Shown here: piece after piece, positions 56,971 through 62,063 of the stretch
How positions within the stretch are numbered: the stretch's first letter is position 1
How the letters are laid out: each line of letters opens with the position of its first letter
From: Psychrobacter submarinus
Lineage (GTDB): Bacteria > Pseudomonadota > Gammaproteobacteria > Pseudomonadales > Moraxellaceae
Assembly: GCF_904846685.1 (NCBI RefSeq)
Contig: NZ_CAJHBQ010000001.1
Span: 1,364,001-1,428,000 of the forward strand
DNA length: 64,000 bases
Direction of reading: 5' to 3'
Program-made: the position numbers and the translations under genes
The notes under the pieces: generated by a model
Told to the model about the DNA's origin: nothing
What the model saw: only the letters and a program-made list of their open reading frames with translations
Database searches by the model: none

Positions 56971-57177
56971 TTATTCATTAAAGTTTGCTATAGATGATTG
57001 AGTGATACGTTTTAGTTTTAGGTCAAGCGGCTCAATATCTTTATACTCATGATAGCGTTTACGCTTCACCTTAACACTGATGTCCATAAATGCGTATCGT
57101 GTTTGTGGTGTTTTTCTTTTATAATGAGTAACGATTTTTTGAACCAGTTGTGTGAGCGTCCCTTCAATTACGATCAC
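56971..57177 (-). CDS. Possible small hypothetical protein
   Basis: A 68-codon frame starting with GTG at 57177 reads MIVIEGTLTQLVQKIVTHYK onward and is rich in Lys and Arg. It ends 26 bases before the DUF1285 gene on the same strand. There is no clear ribosome binding site, no recognised family and no ATG, so this may not be a gene. Confidence 0.3.
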   Translation of the reverse strand: MIVIEGTLTQLVQKIVTHYKRKTPQTRYAFMDISVKVKRKRYHEYKDIEPLDLKLKRITQSSIANFNE

Positions 57178-57290
57178 AAAGACAGCTTTATCGAGTAGCC
57201 CAATATCTTAGACAGCAAATAGAGCAAGTCTTATTCAATGACATTGCGAATAATGTTCTGAGATAAGCCACTAAGAATTTAGGAGTAGGT

Positions 57291-59261
57291 ATGCAAGAAC
57301 AAGACAAGCAAGTGCCAGTTGTAGATGCAGAATCTGATATCACTAATGAGGTGGTAACGACAGAAGCTACTGAAGTAGAAGCGAATTCGGTGGATAAAGC
57401 AGAAGTAGTGGCAGAGCCAGTCGCCGAAGAAGTGGTTGTCGAAGAACCTGTAGTTGCCGAAGAGCCCGTTGTCGAGGAAACGGCTGTAGAAGAGTCCGTT
57501 ACTAACGAGCCAGTCGTTGAAGAAGCAGTTGTCGAAGAGCCCGTTACTGAAGAACCAGTCGCCGAAGAAGCAGTTGTACAAGCACCTGAGCCTGAGCCAG
57601 AACCCGAGATTGAACGCGAATCAATGGAGTTTGATGTTATCGTTGTCGGCGGCGGACCCGCTGGCCTATCTGCTGCTATTCGTCTGCGTCAACAGGCTAT
57701 CGCAGCGGGTAACGATGAGTTTATGGTTTGTGTGGTCGAAAAAGGCTCTGAGTTTGGCGCGCATATTTTATCAGGCGCGGTTATCGAGCCGCGCGCCCTA
57801 GATGAACTAATTCCGGACTGGAAAGAGAAAGGCGCACCGCTTAATGTCCCTGCGATTGAAGATCGCGTTTATATGCTTGGTTCGGCGACCAAAGCCACAA
57901 AGCTTATGGATTCAGTGGTTCCAGCCCTCATGCATAATGACGGTAATTACATCGTCTCACTAGGTAATGTCGTACGTTGGCTCGCTGAGCAAGCTGAAGA
58001 GCTTGAAGTGATGATGTTCCCAGGCTTCCCTGCTGCTGATATTCTCTATAATGATGATGGTTCGGTCAAAGGTATCTTGACTGGCGATATGGGTGTTGCC
58101 GCTGACGGTGAAGAGAAGCCAAGCTTTGAGCCTGGTTATGAGCTCCTAGCAAAATACACTATCTTCAGCGAAGGTAGCCGCGGCCATCTAGGCAAACGTT
58201 TGATCAGCCGTTTCGGACTTGATAATGACTCTGACCCACAGCATTATGGTATTGGCCTAAAAGAGCTTTGGGACATCGATCCTGCTAAGCATGAAGAAGG
58301 CGTGGTACTGCATGGCTCTGGTTGGCCGTTGAGTGATACCGGATCTTCTGGTGGTTGGTGGCTCTATCATGCCGAAAACAATCAAGTCAGCTTCGGTATG
58401 GTCATTGACTTATCTTATTCTAACCCGTATATGTCACCGTTCGATGAGATGCAGCGCCTAAAACTGCATCCACTTATTCGCAATATCTTAGAAGGCGGCG
58501 AGCGTATCTCATATGGAGCACGAGCGCTGACCAAAGGTGGCCTCAACTCTTTACCCAAGTTTACCTTCCCAGGTGGCGTGTTAGCAGGGGATGACGCTGG
58601 TTTCTTAAACCCAGCCAAAATCAAAGGTACGCATACTTCTATGAAGTCGGGTATGCTCGCTGCTGAAGCTATCTTCGAAGCGATAGAAGCCGGCCGTCAG
58701 CATGATGAAGTAGTCGCTTATAGTACGATGTACAAAGAGTCTTGGTTGTATCAAGATAACTATGAGGCACGTAACTTCTCGCCGGCTATGCACCGTATGG
58801 GTCAATGGATGGGCGGCGCGTTCAACTTTATCGACCAAAACCTGCTTGGCGGTAAGATGCCTTTGACGATTCATGATAACTCGCATGACTATCATCACTT
58901 AGAGCGTGCAGCTCATGCATATCAGCCTACTTATCCTAAGCCTGACGGCAAACTTATCTTTGATAAACTCTCTTCAGTGTTTATCTCAAATACCAACCAC
59001 GCCGAAGATCAGCCTGTGCACTTGAAGCTAACAGATCCAACGGTACCTATCGCTATTAACTTACCCTTATATGCTGAGCCTGCGCGTTTATACTGCCCAG
59101 CTGGAGTTTATGAAGTGGTGAAAGATGCCGAAGGCGCTAAGTTCGTTATCAATGCGCAAAACTGTGTGCATTGTAAAACTTGCGATATCAAAGACCCCTC
59201 GCAGAACATCACTTGGGTAACCCCAGAAGGCGGCGGTGGTCCTAACTATCCGAACATGTAA
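57291..59261 (+). CDS. Electron-transfer flavoprotein-ubiquinone oxidoreductase
   Basis: A membrane-associated flavo-iron-sulfur enzyme that passes electrons from ETF to ubiquinone during acyl-CoA and amino-acid oxidation. The FAD motif VIVVGGGPAGLSAAI starts near 117. The 4Fe-4S site is at the C-terminus (LYCPAGVYEVV and NAQNCVHCKTCDI). The protein is 656 residues because of a 111-residue Val/Glu/Pro-rich leader with repeated VEEPV-type units before the normal start region MEFDVIVVGGG. TAGGAG 6 bases before the ATG at 57291 supports translation from there. It fits functionally with fadBA elsewhere in the window. Confidence 0.94.
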   Translation: MQEQDKQVPVVDAESDITNEVVTTEATEVEANSVDKAEVVAEPVAEEVVVEEPVVAEEPVVEETAVEESVTNEPVVEEAVVEEPVTEEPVAEEAVVQAPEPEPEPEIERESMEFDVIVVGGGPAGLSAAIRLRQQAIAAGNDEFMVCVVEKGSEFGAHILSGAVIEPRALDELIPDWKEKGAPLNVPAIEDRVYMLGSATKATKLMDSVVPALMHNDGNYIVSLGNVVRWLAEQAEELEVMMFPGFPAADILYNDDGSVKGILTGDMGVAADGEEKPSFEPGYELLAKYTIFSEGSRGHLGKRLISRFGLDNDSDPQHYGIGLKELWDIDPAKHEEGVVLHGSGWPLSDTGSSGGWWLYHAENNQVSFGMVIDLSYSNPYMSPFDEMQRLKLHPLIRNILEGGERISYGARALTKGGLNSLPKFTFPGGVLAGDDAGFLNPAKIKGTHTSMKSGMLAAEAIFEAIEAGRQHDEVVAYSTMYKESWLYQDNYEARNFSPAMHRMGQWMGGAFNFIDQNLLGGKMPLTIHDNSHDYHHLERAAHAYQPTYPKPDGKLIFDKLSSVFISNTNHAEDQPVHLKLTDPTVPIAINLPLYAEPARLYCPAGVYEVVKDAEGAKFVINAQNCVHCKTCDIKDPSQNITWVTPEGGGGPNYPNM

Positions 59262-59290
59262 GCACTAGCCAAACATGTAAGCACTAGCCA
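59253..59290. repeat. 19-bp tandem duplication spanning a stop codon
   Basis: aacatgtaagcactagcca occurs at 59253-59271 and again at 59272-59290. The first copy contains the TAA stop of the preceding gene, so the second copy lies in the 3' untranslated region. Confidence 0.85.
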
Positions 59291-59325
59291 AACAGGCAAG
59301 TACTGACTTTAAGCTAAGCAATACT

Positions 59326-59360
59326 AAAAAAACCGCTCTTATCTAAGAGCGGTTTTTTTA
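59326..59360. terminator. Bidirectional terminator
   Basis: The arms aaaccgctctta and taagagcggttt (short loop) have an A-tract on the left and a T-tract on the right. It lies between convergent genes. Confidence 0.9.
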
Positions 59361-59407
59361 TGCTTATGCAAAGTAAAGATAACGTCACGGCAACGCCTAG
59401 TTAGCAC

Positions 59408-61083: not shown

Positions 61084-62063
61084 ACCCCACTCTCAACTTC
61101 GAAAGTGATTGAAAAAAGAAGAGCACCTCACTAATCTATTGTTTTCGACCAAGAATACAATGGAGTTGTGAGATGCCCATAGACGAATTTATCATCAATA
61201 TCTATTTAATGGTAGAGCAATATTACAAAATAGTCGTCACCAAACCCTTGCGAAGTGCAGGTTACGCGCCAAAGCTAAGTGATCCTGAGGTTATTTGCAT
61301 GGAGATGGTCGGTGAATTTTTACACCTTGATCAAGACAAACAAATTTGGCAATACTTTACCCAGCATTGGCAAGACTGGTTTCCAGCCATCGGCTCATAC
61401 CCTAACTTCGCAAAGCACTGCGCCAATCTGTGGCAAGTCAAACAGCAGATACAAGATAAAGTCAGTGAACTTGAGGGCCGTGACAACATTCATTTTATGG
61501 ATGGCTTTCCGATACCCGTCTGTCATTATGGACGCGCTTATCGGCATAAAAACTATCAAGACTTAGCGGCTTTTAGCTACTGTGCGGCTAAGCAAGAGAG
61601 GTACTATGGCTTTGAAGGACATTTGCTTGTTAACTTATCGGGCATGATTAAAGGCTTTACCTTTGCTCCTGCCAATGTTGATGAAAGAGCGGTTGCCCCA
61701 GAAATCACCACTCATATTCATGGGCTACTTGGCGCTGATAAAGGGTATATCAGCCCTAGTCTGACATCGTACTACGACGCTCAAGGCGTGGATTTACAAA
61801 CGCCACTCAGAGCCAACATGAAAGAGGATAGACCCAAACCTGTGGTAAGGCGGCTAATGAAAGCCCGCCGTATCGTTGAAACAGTCATTGGTCAGTTATC
61901 AGAACGATTTAATATACAAAAGGTACGAGCAAGAGATTTATGGCATTTGTCTCATCGATTGATTCGTAAGATTCTTTCACACAATCTGTGCTTTGTACTC
62001 AACAAAAAACTTGGTAACCCGCCTCTTCAGTTTGATTTGCTTATTTCAAGTTGAGAGTGGGGT
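61084..62063 (+). mobile_element. IS982-like insertion sequence, copy 2
   Basis: A 980-bp element with the same 16-bp terminal inverted repeats as copy 1. It is flanked by a different 7-bp direct repeat, taaataa, at 61077-61083 and 62064-62070, so it is an independent insertion. It lies in the same orientation as copy 1, 33.4 kb away. Confidence 0.95.
61173..62054 (+). CDS. IS982-family transposase (copy 2)
   Basis: A 293-residue DDE transposase with the same protein sequence as copy 1 at 27730-28611 and an intact reading frame. The element is therefore probably still mobile or very recently moved. IS982 assignment as for copy 1. Confidence 0.92.
   Translation: MPIDEFIINIYLMVEQYYKIVVTKPLRSAGYAPKLSDPEVICMEMVGEFLHLDQDKQIWQYFTQHWQDWFPAIGSYPNFAKHCANLWQVKQQIQDKVSELEGRDNIHFMDGFPIPVCHYGRAYRHKNYQDLAAFSYCAAKQERYYGFEGHLLVNLSGMIKGFTFAPANVDERAVAPEITTHIHGLLGADKGYISPSLTSYYDAQGVDLQTPLRANMKEDRPKPVVRRLMKARRIVETVIGQLSERFNIQKVRARDLWHLSHRLIRKILSHNLCFVLNKKLGNPPLQFDLLISS

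Follow-up and report, generated by a model that had tools for sequence, protein, structure and literature searches.

The window analysed here, a stretch of 64,000 nucleotides from the 3.0 Mb genome of Psychrobacter submarinus, contains a gene for ETF-ubiquinone oxidoreductase (ETF-QO) in which the enzyme is preceded by an acidic, repetitive tail. The gene and its parts are as follows:

57091-57290, forward strand: leader, moving with the tail in recombinants (alignment of the 300 nt upstream of tailed loci)
57281-57285, forward strand: AGGAG ribosome-binding site, 5 nt 5' of the ATG, read from the sequence
57291-59261, forward strand: ETF-QO open reading frame, ATG start, 656 codons (656 amino acids)
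57291-57623, forward strand: acidic, predicted disordered N-terminal tail, residues 1-111, conserved junction included
57291-57305, forward strand: conserved head MQEQD (positions 1-5 at 95-100% in the 93 tailed loci)
57413-57582, forward strand: VEEPV-type repeats in 15-bp units (Tandem Repeats Finder), with a 45-bp duplication at 57485-57582
57600-57623, forward strand: junction EPEIERES, residues 104-111 (EPE[IV]ERES in 93 of 93 tailed loci)
57624-59261, forward strand: ETF-QO core, Met112 to the stop codon

ETF-QO connects the oxidation of fatty acids and amino acids with the quinone pool; it is a very conserved enzyme and a one-sided membrane protein of the inner face of the membrane. The core can be assigned to this enzyme, with electron transfer from ETF to quinone as its predicted activity. 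It matches PF05187 (6.4e-48) and PF21162 (1.1e-37), the ETF-QO 4Fe-4S and ubiquinone-binding domains, both far above the cut-off, and PDB entry 2gmh (2.1e-177) from query residue 107 onward. Residues 107-656 are those of an ordinary full ETF-QO with its FAD, ubiquinone and 4Fe-4S regions; C602, C625, C628 and C631, which we take to be the ligands of the 4Fe-4S cluster, do not vary among 54 aligned proteins. The source genome has one copy of the core, along with both etfA and etfB.

The tail is a different kind of sequence. Its 111 residues include 33 Glu, 27 Val, 12 Ala and 11 Pro, and V, E and P together make up 64% of them; the basic residues are two Lys and one Arg, and the net charge is -34. 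The initial annotation had described a Val-Glu-Pro-type segment of this length ahead of ETF-QO and behind a ribosome-binding site, and both the segment and the site were verified at the coordinates given above. The VEEPV, VAEEPV and VVEEAV units that it listed are real, lying in an imperfect array of 15-bp units (57413-57577), with a periodicity of 45 bp over 57485-57582, and its view of the extension as foreign to the usual enzyme is borne out by the solved 2gmh enzyme and by 96 loci from other genera, which have no acidic tail. A targeting peptide, either a mitochondrial-type presequence or a secretion signal, was considered for residues 1-111 and rejected on the grounds of the net charge and the lack of a hydrophobic stretch. 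On the reverse strand, an open reading frame of 100 codons (57279-57581) mirrors the tail repeats and is apparently a by-product of the codons that the tail uses. At the other end of the gene, a 19-bp direct repeat (2.6 copies, 59245-59294) lies across the stop codon and repeats AACATGTAAGCACTAGCC, duplicating the stop codon region.

The genus was surveyed with one genome per species, and the ETF-QO core was matched in 103 of 105 genomes. One locus (L103) was dropped for unreadable letters at the core start, leaving 102, and another (L104), with a broken core frame and a readable tail, was counted for tails and excluded from the trees. The core of L104 (genome G051) appears as three matches in different frames beside an intact tail, reflecting an assembly error or a broken gene. 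A tail of 37-132 residues (median 69) is present in 93 of the 102 loci, so that extension length, which the initial annotation thought could vary between strains, varies widely between species, while the other nine have exactly MQDEQ[IV]ERES; AGGAG lies within 13 nt of the start in all 102. The ends of the tail are conserved and the middle is not: apart from the head and junction listed above, positions 9, 10 and 12 are kept at 84-92% among the 93 tailed loci, and the middle varies in both sequence and length. The composition is uniform nonetheless: V, A, E, T, P and D account for 77% of the inserted parts, just 5 of 6,767 tail residues are F, W, Y or C, and the net charge per residue is -0.21 (sd 0.03). 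No tail falls between 10 and 37 residues, and a tree of ArgS and FadB contains no reversion to the tailless state inside well-supported tailed groups.

Among the loci examined, the tail appears to be specific to this lineage. The comparison set from other genera consists of 96 loci, 80 of them named records and 16 from the same family; a scan of genome contigs had no locus of the genus among the 80 matches listed. No comparable acidic tail was seen in these 96 loci: upstream frames are open for at least 30 codons in 22, and the single one that passes a window of 20% Asp/Glu is Arg-rich and not tail-like. A query made of the tail and ten core residues matched 75 of the 348 genomes of the family, every one of them from Psychrobacter (1 of 16 genera), although the tail query alone is no proof of absence elsewhere, since it also picked up some other proteins and queries of low complexity give weak scores. 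BLAST, which masks low-complexity sequence, found no match to the tail on plasmids. The nearest resemblances by eye include L190, which has a 13-residue Thr/Asp head before the core, and in Halomonas salicampi (L164) an Asn/Ala/Glu-rich run of up to 22 residues precedes the ETF-QO core, perhaps as a small independent extension.

Where the ordinary enzyme begins bears on what was added. The initial annotation took Met112 as its normal start, which is probably wrong. Similarity to other ETF-QOs starts at about residue 107 (IERES), not at Met112, and a candidate start codon lies in frame no more than 25 codons upstream in all 96 other-genus loci (ATG in 62; GTG or TTG only in 34, mostly a GTG immediately 5' of ERE). 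Acinetobacter loci, for example, begin with MEHIERES, and the genus coded g14 has MQIERES or MQHIERES. The ERE part of the junction belongs to the conserved enzyme: the equivalent of Arg109 is kept in 95 of the 96 other-genus loci, Arg109 and Met112 are invariant in the 54 aligned proteins, and residues 111-119 form the first beta strand in the model. Given the upstream candidate starts, the invariance of Arg109 and the position of this strand, Met112 is most likely internal, and what has really been added lies between a short head (MQ..) and ERES.

The tail itself is most probably translated from Met1. Were translation to begin at Met112, an invariant residue encoded by ATG in all 96 other-genus loci, the tail would not be made and the upstream frame would be incidental. 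We consider this very improbable: no Shine-Dalgarno-like sequence stands immediately 5' of 57624, whereas AGGAG stands 5' of 57291; the frame is open and in phase with the AGGAG start in all 102 genus loci; dN/dS in the tail is below 1 (see below); and such a start would remove ERE and the first residue of the strand.

The tail is predicted to be intrinsically disordered. In an AlphaFold model made with a 54-row alignment, pLDDT is 26-34 over residues 1-90, reaches up to 64 at 101-110 and is mostly 70-98 in the core, and there is no helix or strand before residue 111; by charge and hydropathy, all 93 tails fall on the disordered side. Selection on the tail was estimated from 25 hand-picked close pairs, 22 of which were within the divergence range. 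The pooled dN/dS of the tail in these 22 pairs is 0.45 (bootstrap 0.35-0.58) and that of the 16 ungapped pairs 0.55 (0.34-0.82), intervals that are rough because the pairs were chosen by eye from the tree and some of the genes are mosaic; the core averages about 0.014 over the 22 pairs. The tail evolves as a protein under weak purifying constraint. Of 55 amino-acid differences in close pairs, 19 alter charge, as against 37% expected by mutation (p 0.78); charge changes are thus no rarer than mutation predicts, and there is no short-term sign of charge protection. The uniform charge density may simply come from renewal out of the same VEP codons. No basic compensation was found on the core, which in tailed members is a little more acidic (-21.3 vs -18.1), and the correlation between tail length and core charge is weak (rho 0.21, p 0.04, uncorrected for relatedness).

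Repeat duplication has contributed to the tail at the DNA level. The best 45-nt self-match within it is 38/45, which none of 100 synonymous-codon shuffles reached (mean 33.8), indicating duplication of DNA and not protein composition alone. Among 28 tails tested, the self-match was reached by at most 5 of 100 shuffles in 7 and was not unusual at that level in 21. The earlier suggestion that the repetitive DNA makes the length vary holds in part: the 45-bp duplication is present, but the clear cases of change come from recombination of leader and tail, the signal of which is stronger than that of duplication.

The best-conserved parts of the leader are a TATAAT stretch (57120-57125), conserved in the genus, and the last 25 nt, with a mean identity of 0.97. 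A promoter may lie at the TATAAT, although a promoter scan did not call it and found no more sites than in shuffles (3 vs 3.7). An RNA element in the leader or tail was rejected, as Rfam gave no match over either; its seven sub-threshold rows are all at 59256-59385, around a hairpin downstream of the gene.

Comparison of leaders, tails and cores within the genus reveals several mosaic genes. L083 and L076 have 2 differences in the 300 nt before the ATG and 1 in 315 tail bases, while their cores are 7-14% apart and the DNA further upstream 31%; past its first 200 bases, the L083 core is 1-3% from that of L058, whose leader and tail differ. Similarly, L067 and L078 have tails identical over 123 bases and leaders with a single difference in 300, but their cores diverge by 3-12% and the DNA beyond the leader by 22%. 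Across 91 tailed loci, the correlation between leader distance and core distance is 0.77. Core distances below 4.5% combined with leader distances above 8% occur in 11 pairs, all involving L083, and leader distances below 2.5% with core distances above 7.5% in 57 pairs; these cluster in a few groups, and slow change of the leader accounts for part of the pattern. Directly ahead of the ATG, the final 100 nt (57191-57290) have 0 or 1 difference in 11 of 14 compared pairs (the exceptions are L031/L036 with 3, L058/L083 with 7, and L002/L003, poorly aligned) and are less diverged than the core in most of the 14; this low divergence is in part due to recombination, and a conserved regulatory leader is possible.

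The source locus has a similar pattern. Its nearest core is that of L003 (7.9%, tail of 40 residues) and its nearest leaders are those of L004 and L005 (19.5%, tails of 118), while the leaders nearest to L003 lie in another group (8.7%, tails of 49). In the ArgS and FadB tree, G007, the genome of L003, is placed with G010 and G087 and not with G000 (support 92/96). Because the nearest leaders differ from the nearest cores, and in view of this placement, the contrast between tails of 111 and 40 residues is best read as an exchange of parts, which fits better than slippage or simple shrinkage. The histories of tail and core are thus partly separate: in some species, leader and tail have been swapped as a block, independently of the enzyme. 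This mosaic inheritance is the least expected part of the finding.

Recombination also complicates the question of whether the tail was gained or lost. In both the DNA tree of ETF-QO (106 rows) and the protein tree (80 of 110 rows, near-duplicates removed), the tailless group is nested inside the tailed group, which taken at face value implies loss; a single tailed clade is not rejected, however (AU p 0.168). The ArgS and FadB tree places the eight tailless genomes and G078 (tail of 43) at the base without resolution, and again one tailed clade is not rejected (AU p 0.162). Since the ETF-QO gene recombines, ancestral absence followed by a single gain seems the likelier history. The tail would have arisen once near the base of the genus, by in-frame expansion between an ancestral head (MQ..) and the ERESMEFDV start. 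Duplication of repeats, decay and homologous recombination, the last of these moving leader and tail between species, would later have remodelled it.

Several known systems resemble parts of this arrangement. From residue 107 onward the protein is like any full ETF-QO (PF05187/PF21162; PDB 2gmh), from which the tail alone sets it apart. The acidic A-domain of FtsY, the SRP receptor, restrains stable membrane binding of FtsY according to PMC5533587, and it is likewise a poorly conserved acidic segment before the folded core of a membrane-surface protein. There is no homology between the two, however, the core here being ETF-QO and not an NG GTPase domain, and the MQEQD head contains no equivalent of the extreme N-terminal lipid-binding motif of FtsY. 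Entropic bristles such as the short acidic NT11 tag (PMC12103771) also place an unfolded charged chain, unfolded here by prediction, on a folded enzyme; the ETF-QO tail differs in being natural, longer and fast-changing, and its effect on solubility is putative. Within the genus, an FHA-like membrane protein, so labelled by reading (L106 in the source genome; L203, L204, L205 and L208), contains a VEP-rich linker with VVEEPV/EEPIV repeats of variable length, which in L208 is an almost perfect EEPIV array that continues up to the end of the contig. These linkers join the FHA-like region to a C-terminal hydrophobic segment, and their likeness to the tail is one of repeat style.

With regard to function, our preferred reading, held tentatively and at somewhat less than an even chance, is that a translated, disordered polyanionic tail that arose once on a normal ETF-QO acts as a charged bristle. 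An acidic chain of about 40-130 residues, nearly free of aromatic residues, would keep ETF-QO soluble and would tune its dwell on the anionic membrane surface, lowering it, with no part in catalysis; each of these functional steps we infer. About equally likely is that the tail is a tolerated low-complexity expansion, non-adaptive in origin, at an N-terminal site that accepts in-frame Val/Glu/Pro/Ala/Thr repeats. Duplication and recombination would then alter the tail, and selection would remove only harmful variants, such as those with stops or hydrophobic or sticky residues. Much of the evidence can be set between these two. The weak constraint, with charge changes at the mutational rate, the length range of 37-132 residues, the nine genus members that manage without a tail, and the similar VEP repeats in unrelated linkers, up to near-perfect EEPIV arrays, all favour tolerance over a bristle, and a bristle is further opposed by the lack of a basic change in the core to receive it and by the loss that the ETF-QO tree implies. 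Against mere tolerance, the dN/dS interval stays below 1 (0.34-0.82 in the 16 ungapped pairs), head and junction are strongly conserved, and 93 of 102 loci retain at least 37 residues though duplication or recombination could delete them. The AGGAG and in-frame start in 102 of 102 loci, the absence of tails of 10-37 residues and of reversion in supported tailed groups, the uniform charge density and near lack of F, W, Y and C, the predicted disorder (93 of 93 tails; pLDDT 26-34 over residues 1-90) and the precedent of the FtsY A-domain (PMC5533587) are likewise consistent with a bristle.

Two further possibilities are unlikely. The conserved head (MQEQD..PVxD) could bind a partner such as ETF, a respiratory complex or a protease adaptor, the variable acidic part being a spacer; the contrast between conserved head (residues 1-5, and 9, 10 and 12) and variable middle suggests as much, but head conservation may reflect constraints on translation initiation, and the tailless members have no PVxD. 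ETF alpha and beta of the source genome are of ordinary length and net acidic (-18 and -5), which makes docking to ETF by bulk charge attraction unlikely. A shade more doubtful still is a genus-specific electrostatic module, in which the tail would set both the membrane stay of ETF-QO and ETF turnover, and a leader-plus-tail cassette would be exchanged between species and tuned to habitat (cold or salt); exchange as a cassette would mean that expression and tail length are inherited together. The charged bristle nevertheless remains the reading that we prefer.

In the literature searched, nothing joined Psychrobacter with ETF-QO by its full name, or with intrinsically disordered, acidic and low-complexity sequence together; PMC8546975 offers background only; the parts of PMC8097209 available contained nothing relevant to an N-terminal extension of ETF-QO, and nothing on the tail was found, including in the accessible portions of PMC3364145 and PMC1852404. 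Both the enzyme and this kind of appendage are known; their combination is new with respect to this literature. In one lineage, a disordered acidic tail that changes fast has been joined to an ETF-QO whose core is nearly static. With tails of 10-132 residues, about a hundred species constitute a natural length series for the bulk properties of disordered regions, such as length and charge, and the mosaic genes, with nearly the same core and a different tail, are ready-made tail swaps.

Downstream of the ETF-QO gene, the window also contains an IS982-family transposase (61173-62054). Copies on Psychrobacter cryohalolentis plasmids share 98.4% identity with the stretch around it, and the element matches six plasmid records, five from Psychrobacter and one from Acinetobacter, at 91-98%.
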